Assembly: GCA_947626315.1 (NCBI GenBank)
Contig: CANQRQ010000015.1
Span: forward strand, 1 to 61,130
Length of the DNA: 61,130 bases
Reading direction: 5' to 3'
From: an uncultured Oscillospiraceae bacterium
GTDB lineage: Bacteria; Bacillota; Clostridia; Oscillospirales; Oscillospiraceae
A model generated the notes under the pieces. The model was not told where the DNA came from, ran no database searches, and was given only the letters and a program-made list of their open reading frames with translations. Below are positions 29,910 to 48,809 of the stretch, in pieces (the first letter of the stretch is position 1; the number at the start of each line of letters is the position of its first letter). Position numbers and translations under genes: made by a program.

Positions 29910-31268
29910 TTACTTCTTGGGGGGATACTCCAGGCCAATGCGCTTGCTCTGGCGCTCGGGATCCCAGAAGAAGTGCCACTGGACAAAGTTCTTGATCCGC
30001 GCGGTGTCGGCGGGAGTCCAGGTGTTCAGCTCGCCCTTCTTGTACAGGTCGTCGATCTCCTCGTCGGTGTAGCCGAAGGATTTGAGGACGTCCCGGTTGT
30101 GCTCGCCGAAGCAGGGAGCGGAAGCGACGATCTGAGAGGGGTTCTTCTTGAAGATGTTGACAACGCCGATGCCCTTCATCTTGCCGAAGCACTGATCCTC
30201 CCACTCCACGATGTTCTCGCGGGCCTCAAACTGCGGGTCCTTCTCGATGTCGGCGGGACCGTAGGCGCGCTGGCAGGGGATGCCGGCGGCGTTGAAGATC
30301 TCTTCCAGTTCATCGCAGGTACGCTCGGCGCAGAACTTGGCGCACAGCGCCTCGGCCTTCTGGCCGCGGGGGTCGAACAGCGGGAAGCCGGTGCACTCCT
30401 TGGGGATGTCCGGGTCCACGCCGGGCTTGCCCATGCCAATGATGGGATAGCCGCGGGTGACGGGGCCCTGGCCCACGATGGCGACGAACATGGCGCCGCC
30501 GTCCTTGGTGTCATAGAAGGAGAAGCAGGCAGCCTGGTCGCTCTTGTTGCCGGTGCGGTAGGGCACGGGCTCGCCGGGCTGGGGATAGCCCTTGTTGAAC
30601 CAGTTGGCCGGATAGTTGTCCAGCAGACGGAACATGGTGTCGTACTGGGCCACGTCGCAGGAGTCGCCCTCGCCGGTGTTCTTGGCCTTGATGTAACCGG
30701 CCATGGCGCAGATGCAGGCGTTGTAGGCGGTCACGTAGTCGGACAGATAGGGGTTGACCTTCAGGGGGCCGGAAGTGGGAGACACGCCGTTGAGGTACAT
30801 GTAGCCGCCCATGGCCTGGCCGGACACGTCATAGGAGGGCTTGTCCTTGGAGGGGCCGAACTGGCCGTAGCCGGAGACGTGGACGATGGACAGGGCCTTG
30901 TTGTGCTCCCAGCAGGCCTCGTCGGTCAGGCCGCGCTTCTTGTAGGTGCCGGGACGGCCGGCCTCGATCCAAATGTCGGCCCACTCGATGCACTTGAAGA
31001 AGATCTTCTTGCCCTTGGGGGAAGAGGTGTTGATGGTGATGGAAAACTCGTTACGGTGGTTCTGGGACCAGGACAGGGTGCCGCGGGTCTGGCAGGCGAT
31101 GTTGGGGGCCTCAGCCTGGATGACCTTCGCGCCCATCTCAGCCATCAGAGAACCGGCAAAGGGGCCGGCGATATTGGTGCCGGTAATGAAAACCTTCACG
31201 CCCTGGAGGACGCCGAATACAGGATACTCGTCAAACTTCTGAGTCAGCTTATTGTTGATCTCTTTCAT
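29910..31268 (-). CDS. baiF: Bile acid CoA-transferase, BaiF type (family III, CaiB-like)
   Basis: A 452-residue family III CoA-transferase. TNIAGPFAGSLMAEMGAKVI, QNHRNEFS, HVSGYGQFG, the catalytic Asp177 in VNPYLSDYV, SCDVAQYDTMFRLLD and RTGNKSDQAACFSFYD align in order with C. scindens BaiF as I recall it. BaiF moves CoA from finished secondary bile acid to incoming primary bile acid, saving ATP. It is about 25 residues longer than BaiF at the C-terminus. AAAGGA lies 8 bases before the ATG. It is the last gene of the minus-strand arm; a strong hairpin occupies the gap to the MFS gene. Confidence 0.87.
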   Translation of the reverse strand: MKEINNKLTQKFDEYPVFGVLQGVKVFITGTNIAGPFAGSLMAEMGAKVIQAEAPNIACQTRGTLSWSQNHRNEFSITINTSSPKGKKIFFKCIEWADIWIEAGRPGTYKKRGLTDEACWEHNKALSIVHVSGYGQFGPSKDKPSYDVSGQAMGGYMYLNGVSPTSGPLKVNPYLSDYVTAYNACICAMAGYIKAKNTGEGDSCDVAQYDTMFRLLDNYPANWFNKGYPQPGEPVPYRTGNKSDQAACFSFYDTKDGGAMFVAIVGQGPVTRGYPIIGMGKPGVDPDIPKECTGFPLFDPRGQKAEALCAKFCAERTCDELEEIFNAAGIPCQRAYGPADIEKDPQFEARENIVEWEDQCFGKMKGIGVVNIFKKNPSQIVASAPCFGEHNRDVLKSFGYTDEEIDDLYKKGELNTWTPADTARIKNFVQWHFFWDPERQSKRIGLEYPPKK

Positions 31269-31313
31269 TGAAACAATCCTTTCTTAACAAATTTTTTCGG
31301 TTGGCCGGTTTCG

Positions 31314-31338
31314 GCGGGACGCGGGCTCCGCGCCCCGC
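31314..31338 (-). repeat. GC-rich stem-loop between MFS gene and baiF
   Basis: GCGGG and CGCGG pair with CCGCG and CCCGC across a 3-base loop with one mismatch. No T-run on the minus strand, so a processing or stability element is more likely than a terminator. Confidence 0.55.
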
Positions 31339-31352
31339 TTATCAGGCATAAA

Positions 31353-32633
31353 TCAGTCGCCGTTGGGATACTGAGCCTTCAGCTTCTCGCCGCCCTTGAT
31401 GGCGCCGACGACGCAGAAGAAGAACAGAATGGCGATCACGATGTATACGACCCAGGTCATGCCGTAGCCCACGATGCCCTGGATGATGGAGGTCAGCACG
31501 GAGCCGAGAGCGGCGCCCACCAGGAAGAACAGGTTGGCCAGGGCGTAGATGCCGGCATAGTCCTTGGTGCCGAAGACCTGAGACATCAGCACAGAGGGGA
31601 GCAGCTTAGGCAGGCACATGGCAATGGCGAAGAAGATGGCGTAGCCGTAAGCAATGACGGCGTTGCCGTTGCTGGCATAGAGCACCAGGCTGCCCAGACC
31701 CAGGCAGACCAGGACCACCGCGATGAGCACGGTCTTCTTGATGCCGATCTTGTCCATCAGAGCGCCGCCGCCGACCAGGCCGACGATGGTGATCAGAGAG
31801 TAGACAGACAGAACAGTGCCGGACAGGGTGCCGCCGTCCTGGGCGACAGAGGTGATGAAGTTGGGCACGTGGGTGGTGACGCCGGCGGACAGGATACCGA
31901 CCAGCATCACGACGCCGACAATGCACCACCAGGCGCCGGACTTGGTGGCGACCTTCTTGGACACGCCGATCCAGGCGTTGTCACTGGCGGCCTTGTTGGC
32001 CTCGGCGGCCTTGGCGCCGCTGCCGTCACGGTAGGGCTCGGTGCCGTACTCGGCGGGGGAACGCTTGACCAGGAACAGGGCGCAGATCACCATCACGACG
32101 GTGACGACCGCGGCGGAGAACCACATAGCGGTCTTCCAGCCGGTGGCGCTGGCGGTGATGAACTTGGTCAGCACGGGGGACCAGACCAGGCCGCCCAGGC
32201 CGCCGCCGGCCATGGCGATGGACATCATGGTGCCGCGCTTGTCCTCAAACCAAGCGGTGACCAGCATGGAGATGGGAAGCTGGGTCAGGCCGGCCTGGAA
32301 CACGTTGGAAATACCGAAGATCAGGTAGAACTGCCAGATCGCGGTGCACAGAGGGGCGATGGCCCAGCAGATGCCGGTGCCCACGGTCACAATGATCAGC
32401 ATGACCTTCATGTTCTTCTTCTGGTAGAACCCGGCAATGATCATGGCGCCGATGGCGCTGGTGAAGGACGCGATCAGGTTCACCATGGACCAGGCGCTGT
32501 TGCCGAAGCCCAGGTCCGCGCAGACAGGGGCCATGTACAGCGAGAAGCAGTTGCCCATTATCGCCGTGGGGATAAAGGACATCAGAAACGCCGCTACAAG
32601 GACACCCCAGCCCTTGAACTGTTTCTTTTCCAT
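31353..32633 (-). CDS. MFS transporter, candidate bile acid importer
   Basis: A 426-residue major facilitator protein with about 12 helices. The loop 2-3 region YQKKNMKVMLII, the GISNVFQAGLTQLPISMLVTAWF helix and AGGGLGGLVWSPV recall the oxalate/formate-antiporter-like MFS branch. It sits between baiB and baiF, the place where C. scindens has the bile acid transporter BaiG, so import of the bile acid is the best guess. I did not recognise a close match to BaiG itself and therefore give no symbol. AAGGAG lies 7 bases before the ATG. Confidence 0.82.
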   Translation of the reverse strand: MEKKQFKGWGVLVAAFLMSFIPTAIMGNCFSLYMAPVCADLGFGNSAWSMVNLIASFTSAIGAMIIAGFYQKKNMKVMLIIVTVGTGICWAIAPLCTAIWQFYLIFGISNVFQAGLTQLPISMLVTAWFEDKRGTMMSIAMAGGGLGGLVWSPVLTKFITASATGWKTAMWFSAAVVTVVMVICALFLVKRSPAEYGTEPYRDGSGAKAAEANKAASDNAWIGVSKKVATKSGAWWCIVGVVMLVGILSAGVTTHVPNFITSVAQDGGTLSGTVLSVYSLITIVGLVGGGALMDKIGIKKTVLIAVVLVCLGLGSLVLYASNGNAVIAYGYAIFFAIAMCLPKLLPSVLMSQVFGTKDYAGIYALANLFFLVGAALGSVLTSIIQGIVGYGMTWVVYIVIAILFFFCVVGAIKGGEKLKAQYPNGD

Positions 32634-32737: not shown

Positions 32738-34264
32738 TCAGAAGCCCTTCCGCAGGCTCTCCTCAATGAGCGCCGGCCGGACCAGCTTGCCGCTCTCGTT
32801 GCGGGGGATCGTCTCTACGAACTCAAAGGACTTGGGCATTTTGTAGGGCGGAAGATAGTTCAGGGCGAACTTGATAAGCTCCTTGTCGCTCACCGGCCCG
32901 GAGCATTCCAAAATCGCGTGGATCCGGTGGCCCCAGTCCTTGTCGGGCAGGCCCACCACCACGGCGTCCGTCACCTTCCGGTGCTTCTTCAGCACCGCCT
33001 CCACCTCCGCCGCGAAAACATTTTCCCCGCCGGTGACGATCATATCGCTCCGCCGGTCGGCGAAATAGAGGTAGCCTTCCTCATCCAGCCAGCCCATATC
33101 GCCCACGCTGCGAAAGCCCTTGCCGTCAACCGCCAGGGGCGGCACGTTCTTATAGTTCACCCGCGGGCTGCCCGGGCCCCAGCTCATGAAGATCTCCCCG
33201 GTCTCCCGGGCCGGCAGTTCCCTGCCCCGCTCGTCCCGGATGGAGATGCTCCCGGAGAGCATTTTCCCCACGCTGCCCGGATGCCTGAGCCATTCGTCCC
33301 CCCGGATATGGGTCATGCCGACGCACTCTGTCATCGAGTAGATCTCATAGACCCGCTCCGGCGGCATGAGCTCCAGCCAGCGCAGCTTCAGGTCCCGGCT
33401 GCAGACGCCGCCCGTGTGGCACAGAGCCTTCAGGCTTCTGAGCTTTTCCGGGGAAAAATCCGGCAGCTCCAGAATTCTCTGCATCAGGGTGGGCACCATC
33501 TGGACATATTCTACCTGGTGCTTTTCAATGAGAGATAAAATCGTCTCCGCCTTCAGGCTTGCCGGCATGATCAGCAGGTTCCCCGCATACAGTCCATTAA
33601 ACGCCGCCGAATGGGGCGCCCCGTGAAACAGCGGGCCTGCCAGCAGCTGCCGCATTTCAAATCCCATGCCGGAGACGCTGAACCAGGCCCTCAGACCCTC
33701 GTCGCTCTCTCCGGCGGGCATATTCTGCTCGATCACCTTGGTCTGTCCCGTGCTGCCTCCGGAGCAGTTGGCCAGATTGGGGATCGCCTGCACATCCGGC
33801 GGCATGTGCCCCGGCATTGACCCGGCCAGCTCTCTCAGCTCTGCCGTGCTCATGCAGGTATACCCGTCCGGCCTGCCCCGGTTCGTCACCACCAGGGACG
33901 GGGCGACGCAGGCGCAGATCTCGTCCATATTGCGCTTGGGCGTCCGGTTGGAGACGGGCACATAACAGGCCCCCGTCTTCCAAATCCCAAAAGCCAGGGC
34001 AATATGGAGCGGCGTATTGGGCAGCGCCGCCATGACGCTGTTCCCCTTTCCGATCCCCCGGTCCAGCAAAAACCAGGCCAGCTGATTGGAAAGGACCTCC
34101 AGCTCGCGCCAGGTGGTCACGCTCTCCTTCCCCTCCGCGGAGACATACAGGATGGCGGCGGCGTCCGGCTTTACCCGGGCAATGCACGCCAGCTGTCTTC
34201 CGGCGGTAAAGCAGCTCTCTACGCCCTCGTTGAAGATATTGAAATGCTTGCCAGCGTTTGCCAT
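32738..34264 (-). CDS. baiB: Bile acid--CoA ligase BaiB
   Basis: A 508-residue ANL-family ligase that activates bile acids with ATP and CoA. Core motifs are SGGSTGQTK (A3), YSMTECVGM (A5), SVGDMGWLDEEGYLYFADRRSD (A7-A8) and the catalytic lysine in NESGKLVRPAL. The stretch SGMGFEMRQLLAGPLFHGAP, followed by HSAAFNGL, and RGDEWLRHPGSVGK match C. scindens BaiB closely, as I recall it. Start ATG 34264 has GAGG 8 bases upstream; a GTG 30 bases earlier is possible but has no site. Probably co-transcribed with the upstream SDR. Confidence 0.9.
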   Translation of the reverse strand: MANAGKHFNIFNEGVESCFTAGRQLACIARVKPDAAAILYVSAEGKESVTTWRELEVLSNQLAWFLLDRGIGKGNSVMAALPNTPLHIALAFGIWKTGACYVPVSNRTPKRNMDEICACVAPSLVVTNRGRPDGYTCMSTAELRELAGSMPGHMPPDVQAIPNLANCSGGSTGQTKVIEQNMPAGESDEGLRAWFSVSGMGFEMRQLLAGPLFHGAPHSAAFNGLYAGNLLIMPASLKAETILSLIEKHQVEYVQMVPTLMQRILELPDFSPEKLRSLKALCHTGGVCSRDLKLRWLELMPPERVYEIYSMTECVGMTHIRGDEWLRHPGSVGKMLSGSISIRDERGRELPARETGEIFMSWGPGSPRVNYKNVPPLAVDGKGFRSVGDMGWLDEEGYLYFADRRSDMIVTGGENVFAAEVEAVLKKHRKVTDAVVVGLPDKDWGHRIHAILECSGPVSDKELIKFALNYLPPYKMPKSFEFVETIPRNESGKLVRPALIEESLRKGF

Positions 34265-34294
34265 GACAAATGCCTCTGGACTTTCAAATTTCAC

Positions 34295-34345: not shown

Positions 34346-35113
34346 TCAGGTGGTCAGGTTGGAGGGACGATAGCCGCCGTCTACCTGCAGGCAAACGCCG
34401 GTGATGTAGGAAGCGGCGGAGGAGGCCAGGAACAGCATCGCGTTGGCGATGTCTTCCGGCTGGCCCATGCGCTTCATGGGGATGGTGTCACCGATGCTGT
34501 CCTTGGCGAACTTGGGCAGATTCTTGACCAGATCAGTCTCCACAACGCCCGGGGCGATGGCATTGACGCGCACGCCGTTGGCGGCCATGCTGTAGGCCAG
34601 GGACTTGGTCATGGCAATGACAGCCGCCTTGGAGGCGGGATAGGGCAGGCCGGTGGGGGTGCCGTACACGCCGGCCACGGAGGCGGTGTTGATGATGCAG
34701 CCCTGGGTCTTGCGCAGATAGGGCAGCGCGTACTTGCTCATGTTGAAGTTGGCCTTCATGTTCAGGTCGGACACGTCGTCCCACTCAGACTGTTTCAGCT
34801 TGGTGATCCAAGTGCTGGAGTCCTTGCCGGCGTTGTTGATCAGGACGTCGATCTTGCCCCACTTGGCCTCGACCTCTTTGTACAGCTCCTGGGCGGCCTT
34901 GAAGTCGCACAGGTCGATGTGACGGGTGAACACCTCGTAGTCGGGGTTGATCTCCTTCAGCGCGGCCATAGCGGCGGCGCCGGTCTCCTCATAGTGGCTG
35001 AGGAAGCAGACCTTCGCTCCGCAGGCGAGAAAGGCCTTCACTGCGGCAAAGCCGATGCCGCGGCTGCCTCCGGTGATAACAACTACTTTGTCTTTGAATT
35101 CATTCTCAAACAT
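34346..35113 (-). CDS. Short-chain dehydrogenase, BaiA-like (hydroxysteroid dehydrogenase candidate)
   Basis: A 255-residue classical SDR. Cofactor motif TGGSRGIG at about 15-21, NNAG at 93-96, and the catalytic Ser145, Tyr158 and Lys162 (YPASK) are intact; the end ITGVCLQVDGGYRP is BaiA-like. Start ATG 35113 is preferred over ATG 35137, because GGAG with AAAGG lies between them at proper distance. There is no acidic residue at the end of strand beta-2 (AKVCFLSH), which would permit NADP rather than NAD. First gene of the SDR-baiB-MFS-baiF arm. It may oxidise or reduce the 3- or another hydroxyl of bile acids. Confidence 0.82.
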   Translation of the reverse strand: MFENEFKDKVVVITGGSRGIGFAAVKAFLACGAKVCFLSHYEETGAAAMAALKEINPDYEVFTRHIDLCDFKAAQELYKEVEAKWGKIDVLINNAGKDSSTWITKLKQSEWDDVSDLNMKANFNMSKYALPYLRKTQGCIINTASVAGVYGTPTGLPYPASKAAVIAMTKSLAYSMAANGVRVNAIAPGVVETDLVKNLPKFAKDSIGDTIPMKRMGQPEDIANAMLFLASSAASYITGVCLQVDGGYRPSNLTT

Positions 35114-35452
35114 GTGCTTTTTCCTTTCTCCATTCAATAGTTTTTAAGTCTTCTGCCTTGCCGGGGTCTTCCCAAAACCCCAACAATTCCCCAGTTAACC
35201 AGATGGATGTTACGCTAATATTTTAACAGTTGTCTGCCTCTGCATTTGTGCTAAATAACATTATTTTATGCAAATGGTCCAGACAAAATTTTATATTTTG
35301 CTACATTTTTGCAGGAACGCCAAGTTATGTAAATTAAACAAATTATGTGAGACTGTCTAAAGGCGACAGAAAGACTTGCTCTCCCCGGCATGCTTATTAG
35401 ATAGCCGGCATCCGCGCAAAACGGATGCCGGCTGATTTTTTGCCGTTTGCTC
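35114..35452 (-). other. Promoter region of the SDR-baiB-MFS-baiF arm
   Basis: About 340 AT-rich bases without a gene. On the minus strand I see possible -10 elements (TAAAAT near 35226, TATAAA near 35292) without good -35 boxes, as expected for an activator-dependent promoter, and AGACAAAATTTT (35281-35292) that recurs upstream of the second AraC gene (42646-42657). The hairpin at 35403-35433 ends the region. Confidence 0.45.
35403..35441 (+). terminator. Terminator-like hairpin after the second CoA-transferase gene
   Basis: AGCCGGCATCCG (35403-35414) pairs with CGGATGCCGGCT (35422-35433). The T-run (35436-35441) is on the plus strand; on the minus strand, the direction of the neighbouring gene, the stem is preceded by A residues but followed by no T-run. 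Confidence 0.6.
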
Positions 35453-36757
35453 TTATTTCTTGCTCAGGGCGGAGAAGACCATGTTGTAATAGGTGCCGGG
35501 CTTGTAGACATTGAACCGGTCAGGCTGGAACTGGTCGCCCTCGGAGAGCAGCTTCTTTTCCCGGAACTTGTCCACCTGCTCGTCGCTATAGCCCACCTTC
35601 TTCAGCTCCTCGCGGGTGTGCTCGCCCGCCTTGGAGATGGTGACGGAGGGGCTGCCGGCGTTGCGGAAGGTGCCGGGGGCCATGGGGATGCCGGTCTCGT
35701 AGGGATAATCCTCGGTGCCGGCCTCGTCGGGCTTCACCAGGAAGCCGGCGGCCCAGGCCTGCTCGTCCTTCTGGATGTCCTTGAAGTCGTTGACCACGTC
35801 GAAGGGGATGCGGGCGGTGGACAGCTTCTGGATCCAGTAATCCCGGTCATGGGAGGCAAACTCCGCGGCGAAGAGTGCGCTGATCTCTGCGTTGGCGGCC
35901 TTGGCGGCAAAGTAGTTGGGCCAGCGCTTCTCAGCGTCCGCCGGGAAGGAGGGCATGACCTTCTTGAACTCGGGCACAGAGATGTCCCAGTTGTTGCACA
36001 TGATGTAGATCCACTTGTGGTCGGCGCACTCATACATCCGGGCGGAGGGCATGGCGGCCTCCATGGGGGTGGGATACGGGTCGCCGTAGGGCGCGGCGCA
36101 GACGGGGATGCCGGCGGTCCAGATGGCGGAGCCGTACAGGGCGGTGGTGACCTCCTCGCCCTCGCCGGTCTTCAGCTTGTGGCAGTAGGCGGCCAGGATC
36201 GCGGCGGCCAGATAGGTGCCGGAGGGCACGTCGCCCAGGCCCATGAAGGGGATGTAGGGGGTGCCGTCGCTGCTGCAGCCGGTGATCATGCCGGAACGGG
36301 CGGCATACGCCACCGCGTCAAAGCCGGGGCGGTTCTTGTCGGGGCCCGTGTTGCCGTAGCCGTGGGTGCAGGCCACGATGATGCCGGGGTGCAGCTGGGA
36401 CAGGGTGTCATAGTCGATGCCCAGCTTTTTCTGGTCCGCTTTGCTGACGTGGTGAATGACGATGTCGGCGCTGGCGCAGAGCTTCTGCTGGATGATCTGG
36501 CCCTGCTTGGAGCGGGTGTCCAGGGCGACGGACTTCTTGTTGCCGTTGACAAACTGGTAGATGCAGGGATCGCCGTTCATGATGCCCCGGGCCAGGCCGG
36601 TACCGCGGATCTGGTCGCCGTCAAAGGGGGGATGGACCGTGTCGGGCTCGATCTTGATAACCTCCGCGCCCCAGTCGGCCAGGACGCGGCCGGCAATCGG
36701 CCCCATGACGAAGCTGGCGGTTTCCACTACGCGGACGCCTTCGAGCAATTTGATCAT
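35453..36757 (-). CDS. Second family III CoA-transferase (not of the BaiF branch)
   Basis: A 434-residue family III CoA-transferase. LLEGVRVVETASFVMGPIAG, ADWGAEVIKIEP, the HGYGNTGPDKNRPGFDAVAY segment and the catalytic Asp176 in GLGDVPSG are typical of the formyl-CoA / phenyllactate-CoA transferase type. It differs clearly from the neighbouring BaiF, so it probably serves another acid or another donor; in C. scindens a second transferase, BaiK, also exists but is BaiF-like. AGGAGG lies 7 bases before the ATG. Its promoter has a -10 (36851-36856) but a weak -35, and it is divergent from the first AraC gene. Confidence 0.83.
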   Translation of the reverse strand: MIKLLEGVRVVETASFVMGPIAGRVLADWGAEVIKIEPDTVHPPFDGDQIRGTGLARGIMNGDPCIYQFVNGNKKSVALDTRSKQGQIIQQKLCASADIVIHHVSKADQKKLGIDYDTLSQLHPGIIVACTHGYGNTGPDKNRPGFDAVAYAARSGMITGCSSDGTPYIPFMGLGDVPSGTYLAAAILAAYCHKLKTGEGEEVTTALYGSAIWTAGIPVCAAPYGDPYPTPMEAAMPSARMYECADHKWIYIMCNNWDISVPEFKKVMPSFPADAEKRWPNYFAAKAANAEISALFAAEFASHDRDYWIQKLSTARIPFDVVNDFKDIQKDEQAWAAGFLVKPDEAGTEDYPYETGIPMAPGTFRNAGSPSVTISKAGEHTREELKKVGYSDEQVDKFREKKLLSEGDQFQPDRFNVYKPGTYYNMVFSALSKK

Positions 36758-36850
36758 TTTTCAACCTCCTGTTTTTTATCATTCCTTTTTTTGATTGACT
36801 GTTCTGCTTGCCGGGTCTTGCCCATTGTATGAGGATTTCTATTTGATAAA

Positions 36851-36856
36851 ATTATA
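36851..36856 (-). promoter_or_regulatory. -10 element of the second CoA-transferase gene
   Basis: TATAAT on the minus strand; the position 17 bases upstream reads GGTAGA, far from TTGACA. This pattern suggests need for an activator, for example the neighbouring AraC protein. Confidence 0.5.
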
Positions 36857-36966
36857 GCATATGCGCTCCCCTCTCTACCGTCATTTTTCTAAACAATTTC
36901 TATAATTAAAGAGAGCAAATTAAAAATATTTACTTTCATATCGCGTTCAAAACCGTGATAATGCCG

Positions 36967-36996
36967 AAAATTTGCCGTTGAATTTAGGCAAAATTT
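36967..36996. promoter_or_regulatory. Candidate operator: inverted AAATTTGCC pair
   Basis: AAAATTTGCC (36967-36976) and GGCAAAATTT (36987-36996) form an inverted pair just upstream of the -35 of the first AraC gene. Single copies occur at 38940-38948, 42651-42660 and (ATTTTGCC) 46114-46121, each upstream of a gene of this cluster. Confidence 0.4.
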
Positions 36997-37006
36997 CTTC
37001 AAGCTG

Positions 37007-37035
37007 TTGAATCTTCACAATTTCCATGGTATACT
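37007..37035 (+). promoter_or_regulatory. Promoter of the first AraC regulator
   Basis: TTGAAT (37007-37012) and TATACT (37030-37035), 17-base spacer, about 48 bases before the GTG start. Confidence 0.7.
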
Positions 37036-37082
37036 GTTCGTAAACAAATTTTATGATTTGATGCCGGAAGGAGGGGAAGCGC

Positions 37083-38327
37083 GTGACGGAGACAAGGGTC
37101 CGGCCCCTGTGCGAGGCGCCGCGGGGCGGCGTGTTCTGCGGGCCGAAGAAATATCTGCTTCTGTTTAAGCACCGGATCGCGGAAAGCATGTTCCCCGTCC
37201 TGGAGGACGACAGCTATTTTCTGCTGGTCCGGGGCGGGCGCGGCCGCATGATCGTCAACGGCGTGCCCTTTGAGCTGCAGCCCGGCAGCGTCTGCTGGAT
37301 CCAGTGCACGGAAGTGATGACCATTGAGCCGGATCCGGGAGAGCCCCTGGAACTCTGGAGCATCGTGTTTGAATACGCCCTGTCCAATTACCTCATGTTC
37401 AAGGTCAGCTCCGGCAGCGAGCGCACGGAGGTGGTGACCGGGATACCGGTGATCGGGCCCGGGAGCGAGGCCGCGGCCCGGATGGGGCGGATCTTTCAGG
37501 ATTTTGAGAACATCAACGACCGGCGGGACTACGGCTCGGCCCTGGTCAAGGTCTCCCTTCTGGGCCAGCTGTCCCTGCTCTTCGGCAAGGAGGTGGCCCG
37601 GCTCCGGGAGAGCTTTTCCGGCCGCCGCCTGCCTCTGGGCTGGTGGGCCAGCATCTATATCGCCATGCACAGCCTGGAGAACATCAGCCCGGAGAGCGCC
37701 GCCCGGGAGCTGGGGACCACGGTGAGCAGCCTGAACCGGCAGCTGCGCATGGTGACCGGGCAGAGCTTTGACCAGATGCTCTGCCGCAGCCGCTGCATTC
37801 TGGCCGCCTCCTACTTTCTCTGCGAGAACCTGCCTCTGGACTACATCGCCAACCACGCCGGCTTCAAGTCGGAGGTCACCTTTTTCCGCTGCTTCAAGAA
37901 GGTCATGGGGACGACCCCCAGCCAGTACCGGGACCGGAGCCTGAGCAGCGGCCGGCGGAACCTGCCGTACCGGGGGATGATCATGGACGACCGGCTGCTG
38001 TCCGTGATGCGCTATCTGTACAACAACATCTCCGAGCCTATCAGCCTCTCCAGCATCGTCAAGGCCACCTTCATCTCCCCCAACATCATACGCAGCCTGA
38101 TTGACAAGGCCTTCGGCGTGGGCTATAAGGACATTCTGTCCCTCTTCCGCATCCGCTACGCCGAGTCTCTCCTCTCCGGCACGGACCTGTACCTGCTGGA
38201 TATCGCGGTGCTGGTGGGCTTCAACTCTGTCAGCACCTTCAGCCGGCGCTTCCGGGAGATCAACGGCGAATCCCCCAGCGAGTACCGAAAAAAGTGCCGG
38301 GAAAGGAGCCCTGACCATGAGCAATGA
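37083..38327 (+). CDS. AraC-type regulator with two tandem AraC DNA-binding domains (first)
   Basis: A 414-residue regulator starting with GTG 37083 (AGGAGG 8 bases upstream). Residues 1-110 form a cupin-like sensor (YFLLVRGGRGRMIVNGVPFE). Two complete AraC domains follow, at about 187-286 (ending FFRCFKKVMGTTPSQYRD) and 304-404 (ending FSRRFREINGESPSEYRK), so four HTH motifs in one chain instead of two. C. scindens also has AraC-type bai regulators (BarA, BarB) beside its bai operon, so this is the likely bile-acid-responsive activator. Its last 11 bases overlap the start of the cupin gene. Confidence 0.85.
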   Translation: MTETRVRPLCEAPRGGVFCGPKKYLLLFKHRIAESMFPVLEDDSYFLLVRGGRGRMIVNGVPFELQPGSVCWIQCTEVMTIEPDPGEPLELWSIVFEYALSNYLMFKVSSGSERTEVVTGIPVIGPGSEAAARMGRIFQDFENINDRRDYGSALVKVSLLGQLSLLFGKEVARLRESFSGRRLPLGWWASIYIAMHSLENISPESAARELGTTVSSLNRQLRMVTGQSFDQMLCRSRCILAASYFLCENLPLDYIANHAGFKSEVTFFRCFKKVMGTTPSQYRDRSLSSGRRNLPYRGMIMDDRLLSVMRYLYNNISEPISLSSIVKATFISPNIIRSLIDKAFGVGYKDILSLFRIRYAESLLSGTDLYLLDIAVLVGFNSVSTFSRRFREINGESPSEYRKKCRERSPDHEQ

Positions 38328-38898: not shown

Positions 38899-38929
38899 AT
38901 AATTTACTCAAAATCTGAAAGTGATTTTT
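38879..38929 (+). repeat. Direct repeat upstream of the second CoA ligase
   Basis: An 18-base unit starting AATCTGAAA at 38879-38896 and 38912-38929, two mismatches, spaced by 33 bases (about three helical turns). It overlaps the end of the cupin gene and precedes the ligase. This spacing is suited to an AraC-family activator. Confidence 0.5.
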
Positions 38930-39041
38930 GCTTTTTTGCAAATTTGCCTGCTTAACACTATGGTAAAATAAATTTTGTAAAATAAATAACAAGGCTGTGC
39001 CTTCAGGGCGCGGCCGCGCAGGTCAGGAGATGAAAAAAGCG

Positions 39042-40655: not shown

Positions 40656-40658
40656 ACG

Positions 40659-40690
40659 TTTCCCCGGAAGGCGAGCCTTCCGGGGAAAAT
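40659..40690. terminator. Bidirectional terminator between ligase and second cupin gene
   Basis: TTTCCCCGGAAGGC (40659-40672) and GCCTTCCGGGGAAA (40675-40688) form a near-perfect palindrome; A/T-rich flanks on both sides serve two convergent genes. Confidence 0.75.
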
Positions 40691-40696
40691 CTTTTC

Positions 40697-41287: not shown

Positions 41288-42516
41288 GACCTGCCCTCCC
41301 TGCGCCGTTTTCTGAACTCACTGGGGGACATGCCGTTGATCTCCAGGAAGGTCCGGCTGAAGGTCCGGTCGGAACTGAAGCCGGACTCAATGGAGATGTC
41401 GATCACCGGCATGTCCGTGGTGGTCAGCAGAGCCTCGGCATAGCGCACCCGGAAGAGCGCCAGAATGTTTTTATAGCTGGTGTTCAGGCAGTCCTTGAAC
41501 TGGATCCGCAGCAGGCTGCCGGAGATGAACAGCGCCTTGGAGACCGTCTCCACGTCCAGAGGCTCCGAAAGATTTTCATAGAGGTAGTTGACCGTGGAGA
41601 TAATGTGCTCGCTGAAGATCATCTTCCGGTAGACCCGCTTCCCCTTCCCGTCGCTGAGCATGCTGTTGCGGTAGGTCTCCGGCGTCATGCCGGTGAGCTT
41701 TTTAAAGCGCCGGTAAAAGGTCACGTCAATGTCAAAGCCCACGGTGGAGGCGATGTAATCAAAGGGCAGGCTGTAATATAAAAAGTAGGACGCCGCCATC
41801 ACCAGGCGCAGCCGCACCAGGTACTGGTTGAAGTTCATCCCCGTGGTGACCAGCAGCGCGTGATTCACTGACGCGCCGCTGAGCTTCGGGGAGATGGCCT
41901 TGGCCACCGTGTCCGCCGTCAGCTTCTGGGTGCTGTGGGTGGCGATATAGAGGCTGGCCCGGCGGCCCAGGGGCATATCCTGCAGGCGGTACCGCTCCTT
42001 ATATTTCTGAGCCTCCCGGTTGTACAGCAGCTCGATCTGCCGCAGATAAGCGCTGCGGATCACGGCGGAGCCGTTGGAACGCAGCCCGTCCAGCTTTTCA
42101 AACTGGCAGAACAGGCGGATCAGGGTCTGGAGGATCTCCCCTTCCGGGCCGATCACCGGCACGCCGGTGACGATCTCCGTCTCCCTGTTCAGACTGACCG
42201 GCTCGAACATGAAATAATTCATCAGCTGATAGTCGTAAGCGACGACCCAGAGCTCCAGCTCTCCGCCGAACTCCGGCAGGATGGAGAGGACCTGGGAGGC
42301 CTGGATCCAGGCCACGCAGCCGGGCTCCGCCGGGAACTCCTCTCCGTTGATGATAAAGCTGCCCGTCCCCCGCCTGACCAGGATAAAGTAGCTGTCGAAC
42401 TCCAGCACGGGCGACATATGCTCGCCCACCACGAGCTTCTGCAAGCTCAGGTACTTGTCCGGGCCGGTAAACACATGCTCTTTCGCCTTCTCGTACAGGA
42501 CAACGCCCTGCTTCAT
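41284..42516 (-). CDS. AraC-type regulator with two tandem AraC DNA-binding domains (second)
   Basis: A 410-residue paralogue of the first regulator with the same layout: cupin sensor (YFILVRRGTGSFIINGEEFP), then AraC domains at about 188-284 (ending FYRRFKKLTGMTPETYRN) and 304-404 (ending FSRTFLEINGMSPSEFRK). The N-terminal core of its first HTH is more diverged (TVAKAISPKLSGASVNHALL). It is transcribed towards the first pair. Likely a BarA/BarB counterpart responding to a second steroid, or acting with the first as a heterodimer (inference). Confidence 0.84.
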   Translation of the reverse strand: MKQGVVLYEKAKEHVFTGPDKYLSLQKLVVGEHMSPVLEFDSYFILVRRGTGSFIINGEEFPAEPGCVAWIQASQVLSILPEFGGELELWVVAYDYQLMNYFMFEPVSLNRETEIVTGVPVIGPEGEILQTLIRLFCQFEKLDGLRSNGSAVIRSAYLRQIELLYNREAQKYKERYRLQDMPLGRRASLYIATHSTQKLTADTVAKAISPKLSGASVNHALLVTTGMNFNQYLVRLRLVMAASYFLYYSLPFDYIASTVGFDIDVTFYRRFKKLTGMTPETYRNSMLSDGKGKRVYRKMIFSEHIISTVNYLYENLSEPLDVETVSKALFISGSLLRIQFKDCLNTSYKNILALFRVRYAEALLTTTDMPVIDISIESGFSSDRTFSRTFLEINGMSPSEFRKRRREGRS

Positions 42517-42928: not shown

Positions 42929-44920
42929 TTACAGGTTGTAGCCCACCTCGAAGCCCTGGTGCATGGCGTCGCTGGACTGGCCCGGCTTGATGGCGTCGCC
43001 GATCACATGGATCTCGGGGACCACATCCTTCAGCGCCTCGGACAGCGGATCGTACTTCCGGGAGCCCAGGCCCAGGACGATGTAATCGAAGCCCTTCAGC
43101 CACTCCTCGCTGCCATCCTTGTGCTGGATCTTTACGTCGTGCTCGGTGACCTCCAGGACCTTGGAGTTGACGTGCATCTTCACGCCCTCCCGGCGGAGGC
43201 TGGCCAGGGCGATGTTCCGGTTGGGCAGGCACACGCCGGTCATCATCTGGGGCAGCATTTCCACCAGCTCTACTTCCACGTCGCCGATGCTGCCGGTGGT
43301 GGCGAAGGAGTTGGGCCGGGCGTCGGCCATGAGCATCTCGGCGGTCTCGCAGGCCACCTCGCCGCCGCCCAGGATGCAGACGCGGCCCTTGGGGATGGTG
43401 ATCTTGCGGCTGAGGATGTCATGGGTGGTGATGACGGGATACTGGCCCACGCCCTTGATAAAGGTGGGGATCAGCGGGGTGGCGCCGGTGGCCAGAACCA
43501 CCGCGTCGGGCGCGAACTCCTTCACGTTCTCCACCGTGGCTTCCTTCTTGAACTCGAACTTCACGCCGGCCTTTTTGGCCCGGTAGTTCAGGTGGACCAG
43601 CCACTTGCACATCTCCTGCTTGCCGGGGGAGACCACCGCCAGGTTCAGCTGGCCGCCGATCTGTCCACTCTTCTCCCACACGGTCACGTCATGCCCCCGC
43701 TCGGCGGCGGTGACGGCAGTGTACATGCCGCCGGGGCCGGCGCCCACGATGAGGATCTTCCGGGGCTTGTCCACCGGGTTGAAGGGGAAGTCATACTCGC
43801 GGCCCACCAGGGGGTTGATGTGGCACTTGCAGACCGGGTGCTGCGGGTCCTCCGGGGTGATGCAGCGTCCGCCGCAGGAGCCGCAGGGGGTAATATCGTC
43901 AAAGCGGTTCTCATAGGCCTTCTTGGGCAGGTCGGGATCGGCCAGCAGGGGGCGGCCCAGGCTGATGCCGTCCACCAGCCCCCGCTCCACCAGGTCGGCG
44001 CCGTAGCGGATGTCGTTGATCTTGCCCACCACGAACACGGGGATGTTGACCACCTTTTTGATCTCGGAGGCCTCATACACGTTCATGCCGATCTTCTGGC
44101 TGTGGGAGGGCAGGATGTTCTGCAGACCCTCGTACTGGACGCCGCCGGAGACCTCCAGCATGTCCACGCCGGCCGCCTCGAACTTGGGCGCCAGGTACAG
44201 CATCTCGTCCAGGCCGTTGCCGCCGGGCATACGCTCGGAGCCGGAGACGCGCAGGATGATGGGGAAATCCCGGCTCACGTTCCGCCGGCACTCCTCGATG
44301 ATCTCCAGGGTCAGGCGGGCCCGGTTGTCGATGCAGCCGCCGTACTCGTCCATGCGCTTGTTGCGCAGAGGGGACAGGAAGGCGCCGGGGAGCATATAGG
44401 CGTGGGCGCAGTGCAGGGCGATGCCGCCGCAGCCGGCCTCTTCGGCCCGGCGGGCCGCCTGGCCGTACTGCTTGACGATCTTGTGGATCTCCTCCACGCT
44501 GATGGCCCGGCTGACCGCGCCGTTGGCGTTGGTGTTCACGGAGGGGCCCAGAGGCTTGATGCCCTTCAGGGCGCAGATGGACTCAGGGCCCGGGTGGATG
44601 ATCTGGGGGATCAGGGTGCTGCCCGCGTCGCTGACGCGCTTGGCGAAATCCCGGAACTGGGGCACCAGCTTGTCCTTGTCCAGGGCGGTGGTCCGGCCGA
44701 TGTACCAGTACTTGTGGTCCACCGTGACCGCGTCAATGACCACGTAGCCCACGCCGCCCTCGGCTCTGCGCACGAAGATATCCGCCAGCTGCTTGGGTAC
44801 GGTGCCGTCGGAGGCCTCGTAGTGCATGCTCATGGGCGCCATGGCAATGCGGTTCTTCAGCGTGGTCCTGCCCAGCTGAAGCGGGGTGAAGAGCTTGGCT
44901 TTTTTCATGTCAGTAATCAT
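42929..44920 (-). CDS. baiH: Bile-acid NADH:flavin oxidoreductase BaiH
   Basis: A 663-residue flavoprotein of the old yellow enzyme / 2,4-dienoyl-CoA reductase type. An N-terminal TIM barrel (LFTPLQLGRTTLKNRIAMAP), the catalytic-region IALHCAHAYMLPGAFLSPLR, an iron-sulfur cysteine cluster starting at Cys346 (CGSCGGRC, then CKC), and an FAD/NAD domain (ILIVGAGPGGM) follow in order. Its sequence tracks C. scindens BaiH nearly end to end, as I recall (661 residues there). BaiH reduces or forms double bonds in 3-oxo-steroid CoA intermediates. AAGGAG lies 8 bases before the ATG. It follows the BaiA-like SDR. Confidence 0.92.
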   Translation of the reverse strand: MITDMKKAKLFTPLQLGRTTLKNRIAMAPMSMHYEASDGTVPKQLADIFVRRAEGGVGYVVIDAVTVDHKYWYIGRTTALDKDKLVPQFRDFAKRVSDAGSTLIPQIIHPGPESICALKGIKPLGPSVNTNANGAVSRAISVEEIHKIVKQYGQAARRAEEAGCGGIALHCAHAYMLPGAFLSPLRNKRMDEYGGCIDNRARLTLEIIEECRRNVSRDFPIILRVSGSERMPGGNGLDEMLYLAPKFEAAGVDMLEVSGGVQYEGLQNILPSHSQKIGMNVYEASEIKKVVNIPVFVVGKINDIRYGADLVERGLVDGISLGRPLLADPDLPKKAYENRFDDITPCGSCGGRCITPEDPQHPVCKCHINPLVGREYDFPFNPVDKPRKILIVGAGPGGMYTAVTAAERGHDVTVWEKSGQIGGQLNLAVVSPGKQEMCKWLVHLNYRAKKAGVKFEFKKEATVENVKEFAPDAVVLATGATPLIPTFIKGVGQYPVITTHDILSRKITIPKGRVCILGGGEVACETAEMLMADARPNSFATTGSIGDVEVELVEMLPQMMTGVCLPNRNIALASLRREGVKMHVNSKVLEVTEHDVKIQHKDGSEEWLKGFDYIVLGLGSRKYDPLSEALKDVVPEIHVIGDAIKPGQSSDAMHQGFEVGYNL

Positions 44921-44992: not shown

Positions 44993-45751
44993 TCAGGGGT
45001 TGACCGGGTTCGGGCGGTAGCCTCCGTCCACGCAGAGGACGGCCCCGGTGATGTACCGGGCCATGTCCGAGGCCAGGAACAAAATGGCGTCCGCCACGTC
45101 CTCCGCCTCCCCCATCCGCCGGAGGGGGATGCTGTCGGCAAAGGTCTTCCGGGCCCGGTCGCTGAGCATGCCCACCATTTCGGTGTTGATCACCCCGGGG
45201 GCCACGGAGTTGACCCGCACGTTCCAGGGGGCCAGCTCGCTGGCCAGGGACTTGGTGAGCCCGATCACCGCCGCCTTGGAAGCGGGATAGGGGCAGCCCA
45301 TGCCGGAGCCGTACAGCCCGGTGACTGAGGAAGTGTTGACGATTACGCCGTGCTTTTGCTTTTTGAAAACTGCCGCGGCAAATTTGCAGAAGTTGAAGGC
45401 CCCCTTGACATTGATATCCATCACCCGGTCAAACTCCTCGTCGCCGATGCGGGTGACCGGGCTGGAGCAGGAGACCCCCGCATTGTTCACCACGATATCC
45501 ACCTTGCCGAAGCGCGCCAGCGTCTGGTCGAACACGGCCTTCACATCCGCGGCGCTGCGCACGTCGCACTGGCAGCCCAGAAACTGGGAGCCGGCGGCCT
45601 CCACGAGCCTCTTCAGCTCCTCCATCCTGTCCACCCGGATGTCCACGCCCACGATTTTCGCCCCGTTCCGGCTGAACAGCTCCGCGGTTTTGCGGCCAAT
45701 GCCGGAATTGACCCCCGTAATGACCGCGACCTTATCCAGCAAAAGCTCCAT
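44993..45751 (-). CDS. baiA: BaiA-type 3alpha-hydroxysteroid dehydrogenase
   Basis: A 252-residue classical SDR. TGVNSGIG, NNAG, catalytic Ser142, Tyr155 and Lys159 (YPASK) are complete; Asp37 at the end of beta-2 (VGVDIR) predicts NAD use. INVKGAFNF, the NTSSVTGLYGS element, ASKAAVIGLTKSL and the ending DGGYRP are close to C. scindens BaiA2. Start ATG 45751 has GGAG 6 bases upstream; an earlier ATG is less well placed. Should oxidise the 3alpha-hydroxyl of CoA-activated bile acids and reduce it again at the end. Heads the baiA-baiH unit, divergent from baiCD-baiE. Confidence 0.84.
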   Translation of the reverse strand: MELLLDKVAVITGVNSGIGRKTAELFSRNGAKIVGVDIRVDRMEELKRLVEAAGSQFLGCQCDVRSAADVKAVFDQTLARFGKVDIVVNNAGVSCSSPVTRIGDEEFDRVMDINVKGAFNFCKFAAAVFKKQKHGVIVNTSSVTGLYGSGMGCPYPASKAAVIGLTKSLASELAPWNVRVNSVAPGVINTEMVGMLSDRARKTFADSIPLRRMGEAEDVADAILFLASDMARYITGAVLCVDGGYRPNPVNP

Positions 45752-45812
45752 GATACGCTCCATTCTGCCGCAAAAGCGGCCCAAGTTATCACATGACGTT
45801 CCTTATGATTTT

Positions 45813-46219: not shown

Positions 46220-46225
46220 TAGAAT
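46220..46225 (+). promoter_or_regulatory. -10 element of baiCD-baiE
   Basis: TAGAAT with no recognisable -35 at the proper distance, about 100 bases before the start codon; consistent with activation by an AraC-type protein. Confidence 0.45.
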
Positions 46226-46324
46226 TTTGTCATGAAGTTTTCTGCCTTTCTATTCCCACTTATGGTTTTTCCCAAACCAACCAAAACAAACTAAAAAACG
46301 AAGAAAAGGAAGATGGTACAGCTT

Positions 46325-48241
46325 ATGAGTTACGATGCTCTGTTTAGCCCCATTAAGCTCCGCGGCCTGGAGCTGAAGAACCGCATTTTGCTGCCCGGCA
46401 TGAACACCAAGATGGTCAAAAACCGTCACGGTGTCGGCGAAGACGCGGTCGCTTACCATGCGGCCCGCGCGGCCGGCGGCTGCGGACTGAACATGGTGGA
46501 GATCGTCTCCGTCTGCCCCGAGTCCCACGCCCCCCTGTACTTCGGCATGTACACCGATGAAGACGTGGCCGGCATGAAGAAGGTCACCGACGCCATCCAC
46601 GCCGCCGGCGGCAAGGCCGGCGTGCAGGTCTGGCACGGCGGCTTTGTGCCCGAGCAGTTCTTTGACGAGACCAACAAGCTGGAGACCCCCGACACGCTGA
46701 GCGTAGAGGATATCCACCGGATCGTGCGCCAGTTCGGCGAGGCCGCCAAGCGGGTCGTGGACGCCGGCTTTGACACCATGGAGTATCACGCCGCCCACAC
46801 CTACCTGCCCCACGAGTTCCTCAACCCCTACCTGAACACCCGTACCGACGAGTACGGCGGGAGCTTTGAGAACCGCTGCCGCTTCCCCCTGGAGTGCATC
46901 AAGGCCATCCGCGCCAACATGCCCGAGGACATGCCCCTGTTCATGCGGCTGGACGCCATCGACGAGATGATGCCCAAGAACATGAGCGAGGACGAGATCG
47001 TTGAGTTCATCAACCAGGCCGCCGACGCCGGCGTTGACATCGTGGACCTGTCCCGCGGCAACGCCCGCAGCAACGCCACCGTGTACGAGGTCCCGCCCTA
47101 CAACCTGGAGCCCGGCTTCAACATGGAGATCATCGCCCGGGTCAAGGCCCGCGTGAAGATCCCCGTGGCCGGCGTGGGCCGCATCGTCACTCCCGATCTG
47201 GCCAACAAGCTGATCGAGGAGGGCAAGTGCGACATGGTGGCCATCGGCCGCGCCCAGATCACCGACCCCGAGTGGTGCAACAAGGCCAAGGAAGGCCGGG
47301 ACGACGAAATCCGTCAGTGCATCGGCTGCACCCAGGGCTGCTATGACAAGGTCATCGACCCCAACGCCACCCACATCACCTGCACCCGCAACCCCATGGC
47401 CTGCCTGGAGTACAAGGGCCTGAACAAGACCGACACGCCCAAGAACGTGATGATCATCGGCGGCGGCATCGGCGGCATGATGGCGGCCGAGTTCCTGAAG
47501 GCCCGGGGCCACAACCCCACCATTTACGAAGCCTCCGACCATCTGGGCGGCCGCTTCATTCTGGCCGGCAAGGCCCCCAAGAAGCAGGGCTTCACCGCCG
47601 CTGCCGAGTGGGAGGCTAAGGAGTGCGTGCGCATGGGCATCGAGATCAAGACCGGCGTCACCGTGACCCCCGAGATGATCGCCGAGGTCAAGCCCGACCA
47701 TGTGATCGTGGCCATCGGCGCCGAGTACAAAGCGCCCGACATCCCCGGCATTGACGGGGCGGACGTGTACTGCGTGGACGATATCCTCTCCGGCAAGGCC
47801 AAGGCCCACGGCGAGACCCTGGTTCTGGGGGGCGGCGGAGACGGCATCGAGGTCGCTCAGTTCCTGTATGAAGAGGGCTGCGACGTGCGCGTGATGGACA
47901 AGGTCCGCGTCGGCAACGGCACCGGCATGCTGCGCAACATGTTCCTGAATCTGGAGTACACCCCCGATCAGATCAAGCGCAGCAACAAGTCCAACATTCT
48001 CTCCATCGGCGACCACGAGGTTACCTACAAGTTCACCGACAAGTTCAAGAAGACCTCCACCAAGACCCGTCATTTTGACAGCCTGGTTGTGGCCATCGGC
48101 ATCACCTCCCGTCCCACCGAGGCCCTCACCGCCAAGTGCGCGGAGCTGGGCATCCCCTGCGACGTGATCGGCGACGCCAAGGAAGTCCGCATGGGCATCG
48201 ACGCCACCCGCGAGGCCTACGAAGTCGGCACCGCCATCTGA
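46325..48241 (+). CDS. baiCD: Bile-acid NADH:flavin oxidoreductase BaiCD (3-oxo-Delta4 forming)
   Basis: A 638-residue flavoprotein. MSYDALFSPIKLRGLELKNR, LPGMNTKM, WHGGFVPEQFFDETN, MEYHAAHTYLPHEFLNP, the iron-sulfur cysteines Cys332, Cys335, Cys339 and Cys353 (CIGCTQGCYD) and the FAD motif IGGGIGGMMAAEFLKARGHN align with C. scindens BaiCD over the whole length, as I recall. BaiCD oxidises the 3-oxo intermediate to the Delta4 compound and works on 7alpha-hydroxy bile acids. I chose ATG 46325 because BaiCD begins MSY; ATG 46313 is closer to AAAGGAAG and also possible. baiE follows after 37 bases. Confidence 0.92.
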   Translation: MSYDALFSPIKLRGLELKNRILLPGMNTKMVKNRHGVGEDAVAYHAARAAGGCGLNMVEIVSVCPESHAPLYFGMYTDEDVAGMKKVTDAIHAAGGKAGVQVWHGGFVPEQFFDETNKLETPDTLSVEDIHRIVRQFGEAAKRVVDAGFDTMEYHAAHTYLPHEFLNPYLNTRTDEYGGSFENRCRFPLECIKAIRANMPEDMPLFMRLDAIDEMMPKNMSEDEIVEFINQAADAGVDIVDLSRGNARSNATVYEVPPYNLEPGFNMEIIARVKARVKIPVAGVGRIVTPDLANKLIEEGKCDMVAIGRAQITDPEWCNKAKEGRDDEIRQCIGCTQGCYDKVIDPNATHITCTRNPMACLEYKGLNKTDTPKNVMIIGGGIGGMMAAEFLKARGHNPTIYEASDHLGGRFILAGKAPKKQGFTAAAEWEAKECVRMGIEIKTGVTVTPEMIAEVKPDHVIVAIGAEYKAPDIPGIDGADVYCVDDILSGKAKAHGETLVLGGGGDGIEVAQFLYEEGCDVRVMDKVRVGNGTGMLRNMFLNLEYTPDQIKRSNKSNILSIGDHEVTYKFTDKFKKTSTKTRHFDSLVVAIGITSRPTEALTAKCAELGIPCDVIGDAKEVRMGIDATREAYEVGTAI

Positions 48242-48278
48242 GCCATCTGAACCAAATTTCAGGAAAGGACGATTTACC

Positions 48279-48809
48279 ATGACTGTTGAAGAACGCCTGG
48301 AAGCTCTTGAAAAAGAAGTCCAGAGGATGAAGGACATCGAGGCCATCAAGGTCCTCAAGAGCCGCTACTTCCGCGCTCTGGACACCAAGGACTGGGACGC
48401 GCTGGAGAAAACCATGCACCCGGACATCTCCACCTCCTACTCCAACGGCAAGCTGGTGTTCCACGGCCCCAAGGAGATCACCGACTATTTCAAGGAGGTC
48501 CAGCCCCCCACGGAGATCACCCTGCACCAGGGCCACAACCCGGAGATCACCATCGTCAGCGACACCGAGGCTGTCGGCAAGTGGTACCTCCAGGACAACC
48601 TGATCTTTGCCGAGGGCAACCCCTATGAGGGCACTCAGATCCAGGGCTCCGCTATCTACACCGACAAGTATGTGAAGGTGGACGGCGAGTGGCTCATTAT
48701 GGAGACCGGCTATCTGCGGATCTACGAGGAGTCTTTCCAGCGGGACAAGACCCACCGGATCAGCATCAACATGTTCCGGCCCAAGAAAAAGAAAGTCGTA
48801 AAAAAATAA
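48279..48809 (+). CDS. baiE: Bile acid 7alpha-dehydratase BaiE
   Basis: A 176-residue SnoaL/NTF2-like enzyme, the rate-limiting step of 7alpha-dehydroxylation. MTVEERLEALEKEVQ, MKDIEAIKVLKSRYFRALD, TSYSNGKLVFHGPKEITDY and METGYLRIYEE follow C. scindens BaiE closely. Catalytic-site residues known from BaiE are at the same numbers: Tyr30, Asp35, Tyr54 and His83; the arginine of BaiE position 146 is Arg147 here after a one-residue insertion. The C-terminus carries an extra Lys-rich tail (KKKKVVKK). AAAGGA lies 9 bases before the ATG. It forms an operon with baiCD and is followed by a hairpin. Confidence 0.93.
   Translation: MTVEERLEALEKEVQRMKDIEAIKVLKSRYFRALDTKDWDALEKTMHPDISTSYSNGKLVFHGPKEITDYFKEVQPPTEITLHQGHNPEITIVSDTEAVGKWYLQDNLIFAEGNPYEGTQIQGSAIYTDKYVKVDGEWLIMETGYLRIYEESFQRDKTHRISINMFRPKKKKVVKK

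Follow-up and report, generated by a model that had tools for sequence, protein, structure and literature searches.

The window analyzed here is a whole contig of 61,130 nucleotides (contig C15) from a 2.68-Mb, 97.75% complete genome of an uncultured Oscillospiraceae bacterium, and it carries a set of bai genes for bile acid 7α-dehydroxylation. Judging from the genes alone, we consider it about 80% probable that this is a split-type bai cluster of a Limivicinus-like member of the Oscillospiraceae, and that it forms the left half of a roughly 31-kb island whose right half consists of ATP-grasp and glycan genes. The conserved unit appears to continue past the bai genes to position 60760, giving the island a probable span of 29910–60760. 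Its two halves seem to have been largely inherited, and moved between bacterial families, together, with some genes exchanged along the way. That the bai cluster is real, intact, and situated in the chromosome of such a host is supported by gene content, trees, and synteny.

The bai genes occupy positions 29910–48809, where every gene is on the minus strand except baiCD, baiE, and three genes of an insert described further below. Apart from that insert, the features are:

29910..31268, minus strand: baiF-type CoA transferase (PF02515; in the bai clade of its tree)
31353..32633, minus strand: major facilitator superfamily (MFS) transporter in the BaiG slot, of the “BaiG-like” kind of strain c-25 (by synteny and identity)
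32738..34294, minus strand: baiB, bile acid-CoA ligase (828 bits on NF038344 vs. a cutoff of 650; tree)
34346..35137, minus strand: SDR1, a short-chain dehydrogenase/reductase (SDR) in the baiA slot, for a 3α-hydroxysteroid dehydrogenase (HSDH) (by PDB match and slot)
40697..41287, minus strand: cup2, in the barB position (synteny; no Pfam match)
41284..42516, minus strand: AraC2, in the barA position (AraC-type helix-turn-helix; synteny)
42929..44920, minus strand: baiH (tree; 68–74% identity to seven one-strand records)
44993..45784, minus strand: SDR2, a second BaiA-like SDR (43% identity to SDR1; tree)
46313..48241, plus strand: baiCD (823 bits on NF041087, two bits short of the cutoff of 825; tree)
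48279..48809, plus strand: baiE, 7α-dehydratase (PDB matches, tree, and residues)

An initial annotation of this DNA had reported BaiB, BaiF, BaiH, BaiCD, BaiE, and a BaiA-type SDR as present and intact, and each proved to be an open frame where it had been placed. A BaiA-type SDR is indeed there, though in two copies rather than one. In the PDB, BaiE best matches the three BaiE sequences with solved structures (E 4e-72 to 1e-64). The protein retains Y30, D35, H83, D106, and R147, which we take to be catalytic; in a 34-row BaiE alignment, the first three of these residues never vary and the last two hardly do. BaiE falls in the BaiE clade, and BaiCD and BaiH in clades of their own, so that the three proteins whose tree positions the annotation had named as decisive all lie inside the bai clades. 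BaiB scores above its model cutoff. Since BaiH also reaches 417 bits on the BaiCD model NF041087, its name depends on the tree. Tree, PDB match, and slot point to BaiA and BaiF as genuine members of their families. For instance, the best PDB match of SDR1 is 4is2, a bile acid 3α-HSDH (E 4e-56), its YxxxK motif is present, it is 76% identical to its CAG:103 counterpart, and it occupies the same slot as the assayed BaiA of UBA11811; its other library matches are general SDR models. The baiF product is 97% identical to those of two congeners and 83–86% identical to those of three split clusters in Lachnospiraceae. The transporter cannot be called BaiG, as it scores 184 bits on NF038246 against a cutoff of 400. 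It shares 71–75% identity with the transporters of four loci (L099 and L103–L105); in L093 and others the slot is filled by another frame, some 476 residues long, and in L097, L100, and L101 it is too small for such a gene. According to the main text of Song 2021 (PMC8623032), the BaiG-like transporter of c-25 has 22% identity to BaiG. No baiI-like gene was found, as the annotation had said: a BaiI-like query from Sporofaciens returned only BaiE itself (26%) from the window’s own genome. A bai-box search yielded a promoter-like sequence, TGTTARAATWTTGTC, 5′ of SDR1 and baiCD, only in some congeners.

The arrangement of these genes is divergent, with baiCD-baiE facing away from baiH-barA-barB-baiA-baiB-transporter-baiF, and the core genes are thus not gathered on one strand in the manner of Clostridium scindens. 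The annotation’s description of two arms on both strands around central regulators therefore stands, while its count of three transcription units understates the insert; likewise, its regulatory island in the middle exists, but it actually contains two AraC/barB pairs together with an extra CoA transferase and an extra BaiB-like ligase. The layout itself is neither new nor a sign of Oscillospiraceae, for it has been published before and is found in Lachnospiraceae too. Window proteins were mapped onto loci L002–L031, 14 wider stretches, and, once more, five earlier loci. Sixteen records (L002–L015, L024, and L025) have the split layout. Their hosts are CAG:103, RUG332, RUG13615, UBA1701, Limivicinus, the Lapin, SRR, SUG, and BRZ metagenome-assembled genomes (MAGs), and four Lachnospiraceae, namely Claveliimonas bilis c-25 (L025), Sporofaciens musculi, and two MAGs; in Lapin-008 and Limivicinus, which are spread over several contigs, the layout is pieced together. 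Seven records, among which C. scindens itself is not included, are of the one-strand type (Extibacter, CE91-St61, Dorea D27, Peptacetobacter, Proteocatella, Scatomorpha, and hRUG855). The layout was rejected as a mark of host family, given the four Lachnospiraceae records that have it and the one-strand hRUG855, a presumed member of the window’s own family.

In trees of BaiE, BaiCD, BaiH, BaiB, and BaiF, the window proteins group within bai clades together with C. bilis c-25 and CAG:103. The two layout types come apart in the BaiCD, BaiB, and BaiF trees, and the BaiE tree places the one-strand rows in one group and the split rows along an unresolved backbone. BaiF, BaiB, and BaiCD of the window are 43–61% identical to the one-strand type, and its enzymes are 58–83% identical to those of c-25, with the same gene order.

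The host proposed by the annotation was borne out. BaiE of the window is 99% and 98% identical to that of the uncultured Oscillospiraceae bacterium isolates Lapin-032 and Lapin-008, respectively, and the nearest relatives, as we infer them, are uncultured Oscillospiraceae records and the congener Candidatus Limivicinus sp., the equation of the genus being our own. Two neighboring genes that it had assigned to the core genome, rnpB and murD, were both confirmed. BaiE is patchy in the genus, occurring in 10 of 102 genomes including the window’s own, and in 7 of the 34 of good quality (E ≤ 1e-30). With the more permissive cutoff of E ≤ 1e-15, which lets in distant BaiE-like proteins as well, 11 of 400 sampled family genomes have a match.

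The right half of the island begins directly after baiE:

48922..50013, plus strand: AG1, ATP-grasp protein (PF14397)
50000..51085, plus strand: AG2, ATP-grasp protein (PF14397), aligned from a later start at 50027
53473..55137, plus strand: sodium:solute symporter (8 of 15 distinct loci have it, all outside Lachnospiraceae)
55100..55984, plus strand: polysaccharide pyruvyl transferase
55953..56864, plus strand: first glycosyltransferase of family 2 (GT2)
56884..57798, plus strand: second GT2
57808..58689, plus strand: TupA-like ATP-grasp protein
58701..59687, plus strand: AG3, ATP-grasp protein (PF14397)
59666..60760, plus strand: AG4, ATP-grasp protein (PF14397), where the conserved island ends on the right

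In every one of the 16 split-layout records, as in Hespellia, AG1 (60–89% identity) lies 3′ of baiE. The AG1-AG2 pair is visible in 15 of the 16 (L006 ends before AG2) and again in Hespellia, where the order is baiCD-baiE-SDR-SDR-CoA transferase-MFS followed by AG1-AG2, without the glycan genes and with a different bai order. The pyruvyl transferase and both GT2 genes each occur in 15 of 16 loci and the TupA-like gene in 14. AG3 and AG4 are seen in 11 and 8 of 16, respectively, where the loci come to an end, and further stretches add three AG3 and four AG4. Gene order in this half is identical in both families, and the island stops at AG4 in Claveliimonas and Sporofaciens. In CAG:103, two SnoaL genes lie between AG1 and AG2, one of which resembles, by eye, the protein in the BaiI position of Sporofaciens (the baiI place of Song 2021), and to the right of AG4 an SDR, one more baiF, and a BaiJ-like open reading frame (ORF) are present in CAG:103 as well as in RUG332. 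AG1 was not found in the examined flanks of L023 and L026.

Because the one-strand operon occupies much of the flank initially compared, wider flanks were used for that type, amounting to about 30 kb on each side of baiE in Extibacter, Dorea D27, CE91-St61, Proteocatella, and hRUG855, and limited by contig ends in Peptacetobacter (39 kb of a 41.7-kb contig) and Scatomorpha (a 29.8-kb contig). Within these flanks, eight right-half proteins (AG1–AG4, the pyruvyl transferase, the two GT2 proteins, and TupA) gave no match at E ≤ 1e-6 near bai in any of the seven records, a comparison that favors the island.

Movement between families is suggested by the trees. In an AG1+AG2 tree and a tree of four glycan proteins, the Lachnospiraceae stand beside CAG:103/RUG332, with Shimodaira–Hasegawa approximate likelihood-ratio test (SH-aLRT) supports of 95 and 99, and the same placement recurs for BaiE (88/88), BaiB (93), and AraC2 (89). 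The ATP-grasp, glycan, BaiE, BaiB, and AraC2 trees thus agree on one move into Lachnospiraceae.

Several observations weigh against the overall reading given at the outset. BaiH of the Lachnospiraceae split clusters is nearer the one-strand type, and their SDR1 groups with that of BRZ bin27; both trees speak against the island having moved whole, and the BaiCD, BaiF, and cup2 trees favor neither placement. The bai clusters are mosaics. Among congeners in which the orthologue is present, third-codon identity is 63–77% for the right-half genes and 87–90% for baiF, baiH, baiCD, and baiE; baiB, at 65%, departs from the other bai genes, and the silent sites of SDR2 are also less alike (window vs. 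L093, L121, and L122). Either the recent history of the halves is not fully common or their codon bias differs, and the high values of the four bai genes may reflect recent gene exchange or strong codon bias. A search of the window’s own genome yielded no bile salt hydrolase (a control gave matches in 4 of 14), in contrast to the Oscillospiraceae of Kim 2022 (PMC9426597), whose main text reports one in all 41 MAGs. Lastly, the spacer between baiE and AG1 has two features that bear on regulation:

48821..48849, plus strand: terminator-like hairpin
48867..48895, plus strand: perfect TTGACA-17-TATAAT promoter match 5′ of AG1 (12 of 12)

The spacer folds at −33 kcal/mol, vs. −19.3 (standard deviation 2.5) for shuffled sequences, and has no match in Rfam. 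In view of the strong hairpin and perfect promoter, the right half of the island is probably not induced by bile acids here, and a single long bile acid-inducible operon from baiCDE into the ATP-grasp genes was rejected for this window. A scan of 15 other loci showed the TGCCGC...GGCGGCA hairpin, exact or slightly varied, in eight, other stems in four whose spacer also contains SDR2, and no stem in three (L004, L005, and L013); the 12-of-12 promoter recurs only in Lapin-008.

The route of 7α-dehydroxylation is established, and the cluster would very probably convert cholate to deoxycholate by it. After uptake, BaiB would ligate the acid to CoA, BaiA would oxidize it at C3, and oxidation by BaiCD, dehydration by BaiE, and CoA transfer by BaiF would follow; BaiH and BaiCD would then carry out reductions, and BaiA the last one. 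The right half would most likely build or amidate a surface glycan, helping the cell to live with its own detergent acids. A more far-reaching proposal, in which the split cluster is half of a transferable bile acid island, the other half, headed by an ATP-grasp amide ligase pair dedicated to it, is a working part of the system (as envelope armor against the product or by conjugating the acid itself), and the insert, with its own regulators, extends the pathway to another bile acid, is offered only tentatively.

The ATP-grasp/glycan block could be an old chromosomal neighbor that hitch-hikes without any functional link, which we rate as a serious contender at somewhat less than even odds. The strong separate promoter before AG1 and the different rates at which silent sites of the halves diverge within the genus fit such a neighbor, as do PF14397 genes on unrelated replicons, present in nine plasmid records at low identity and with none covering 80%. 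Among 93 pattern-matching stretches of viral contigs, none encodes an AG1 relative. Set against mere proximity are the persistence of the block beside bai, with an unchanged right border, through the transfer into Lachnospiraceae, the presence of AG1-AG2 alone after the different bai operon of Hespellia, and the SnoaL genes that lie between the two in CAG:103. That AG1 and AG2 are instead amide ligases acting on the bile acid itself, yielding amino acid conjugates, seems improbable. Their predicted models (predicted local distance difference test scores of 79 and 84) match the folds of the ATP-grasp peptide/amide ligases ArgX, D-Ala-D-Ala ligase, PsnB, and RimK, the pair accompanies bai genes in two arrangements, and the apparent lack of a bile salt hydrolase would suit conjugation; yet the template modeling scores are about 0.3–0.5, a sequence search gave no solved homologue of AG1, and both the Pfam name and the neighbors indicate glycans.

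A further feature of the window is an insert at 35343..40727 (5.3 kb), at a point where both closest relatives have 130–158 bp. Its genes are:

35453..36757, minus strand: CoAT2, a second CoA transferase of its own subfamily (PF02515)
37083..38327, plus strand: AraC1, a regulator (two AraC-type helix-turn-helix matches; 45% identity to AraC2)
38317..38898, plus strand: cup1, barB-like (32% identity to cup2; a weak PF02311 match just below cutoff)
38997..40655, plus strand: baiB2, a BaiB-like ligase of its own subfamily (381 bits on NF038344 vs. a cutoff of 650)

With the insert, the cluster gains another regulator pair along with another CoA ligase/transferase pair, most likely for a different bile acid or steroid acid. 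Among 120 listed homologues of each protein, 36 CoAT2 clusters fall at 43–92% with the others at ≤37%, and 23 BaiB2 clusters fall at 47–100% with the others at ≤42%. If an unrelated CoA-thioester pathway had come to lie here by chance, that would account for the rarity of both families among sampled relatives, where the CoAT2 profile matches 1 of 102 genus genomes and the BaiB2 profile a single one among 394 genomes of the order and again among 391 of the class, in each case the window’s own. Besides the protein itself, a single-protein BaiB2 search of 400 family genomes gave one match in the own genome and nine others, all at 35–37%; those from genomes with a bai cluster lie at baiB places. 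Chance is nonetheless unlikely. The only PDB match of the BaiB2 family profile at E ≤ 1e-60 is 4lgc, a bile acid-CoA ligase, and CoAT2 is 65% identical to a Hespellia homologue that adjoins baiE within the bai operon of that organism; among 25 BaiE-positive genomes, the CoAT2 profile matches two, Hespellia strongly and Scatomorpha weakly. Moreover, among the longest contigs listed for each family, identical exact sizes above 5 kb are shared by BaiB2 and CoAT2 (5969, 6255, and 23796), by CoAT2 and BaiE (16384, 18000, and 23796), and by BaiB2 and BaiE (23796, besides a short one of 3166), whereas far-homologue controls share none over 5 kb and only two short ones (1853 and 1880). This suggests that BaiB2 and CoAT2 co-occur with BaiE in metagenomes, on the strength of equal sizes of which the 18000-base Hespellia contig alone was read. 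The extra ligase/transferase pair and the 43–61% identity to one-strand enzymes could also be taken to mean that the main substrate of the whole cluster is some steroid acid other than cholate. This is highly improbable in light of the closeness and shared gene order with c-25, a cultured deoxycholate producer, and of the retained active-site residues of BaiE.

Other observations concern the surroundings and relatives of the cluster. Two near-identical hairpins 110 bp apart lie between AG2 and the symporter (52122–52258). To the left of the island, rmlC and rmlD are found at 26729–28187; the matching region of a relative (G400) is inverted and lies to the right of AG4, and these rhamnose genes may be part of the glycan block. 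Elsewhere in the genome, contig C16 carries an open frame of 586 amino acids for a flavoprotein (28468–30165; L134) that is 51–53% identical to an ORF in L099. Its name, BaiJ/P-like, is presumed from the style of its sequence, and the protein could act in reduction of pathway intermediates or in allo-bile acid production. Three loci in other genera of the same family (L143–L145) have distant BaiE-like genes (31–34%) beside SDRs, two of them (L143 and L144) with a BaiCD-like gene (33–34%) and a ligase-like match as well; a further dehydroxylation cluster for another substrate is possible. BaiE-like proteins of 38–46% identity are also found in many Gammaproteobacteria (SAR86, Spongiibacter, and Zhongshania) and in the Actinobacteria Dietzia, Nocardioides, and Gordonia (L027, L030, and L033–L079).

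The bai-linked ATP-grasp/glycan block goes unmentioned in the bai papers examined. The main texts of PMC8623032 and PMC9426597, figures and supplements excluded, contain no occurrence of “ATP-grasp”, and that of PMC8623032 none of “glycosyl” or “polysaccharide”. In the open-licence literature of PubMed Central, no paper was found that joins bai operon or gene cluster terms with ATP-grasp, and those combining baiE with ATP-grasp are unrelated by title. Should the block indeed travel with the bai genes, it could have a role in product tolerance or in making an unknown bile acid conjugate, and it is a possible metagenome marker of split-type as opposed to one-strand producers. The main text of Kim 2022 (PMC9426597) argues that split-type Oscillospiraceae, uncultured at the time, are the main deoxycholate makers of the human gut.

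Since the layout was described by both Song 2021 and Kim 2022, the window is a further example of a published arrangement. The main text of Song 2021 (PMC8623032) reports it in Eubacterium sp. c-25 (C. bilis c-25 in the title of L025), a deoxycholate producer in which cholate raised baiB 219-fold, baiCD 292-fold, and baiH 14-fold. Like the window, c-25 has baiCDE on one strand, baiH, barA/barB, baiA2-B-G-F on the other strand, a BaiG-like transporter, no baiI in the cluster, and the ATP-grasp/glycan block at the right. The window differs in belonging to the Oscillospiraceae rather than the Lachnospiraceae, in having SDR2 beside baiH, and in its 5.3-kb insert. In uncultured Oscillospiraceae, the split layout is described in the main text of Kim 2022 (PMC9426597), where BaiA and BaiB of UBA11811, whose slots SDR1 and BaiB of the window occupy, were assayed and UBA11811 and CAG:103 share one BaiE cluster (>97.2% identity). 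As presented there, the operon of that cluster 1 resembles the window in gene order, host family, and barA/barB, but has a baiG-type transporter and two adjacent baiF genes, as opposed to a BaiG-like transporter and one baiF; in addition, the window has no SnoaL gene at the place between AG1 and AG2 where CAG:103 has them. The C. scindens-type baiBCDEA2FGHI operon shares the core enzyme set, but is on one strand, and the seven such records lack this ATP-grasp/glycan block in their flanks. Finally, clusters of PF14397 sugar-transfer associated ATP-grasp and PF14305 TupA proteins have the same domain content as the right half. What differs here is the link of AG1 to bai genes, seen in 17 named records besides the window.

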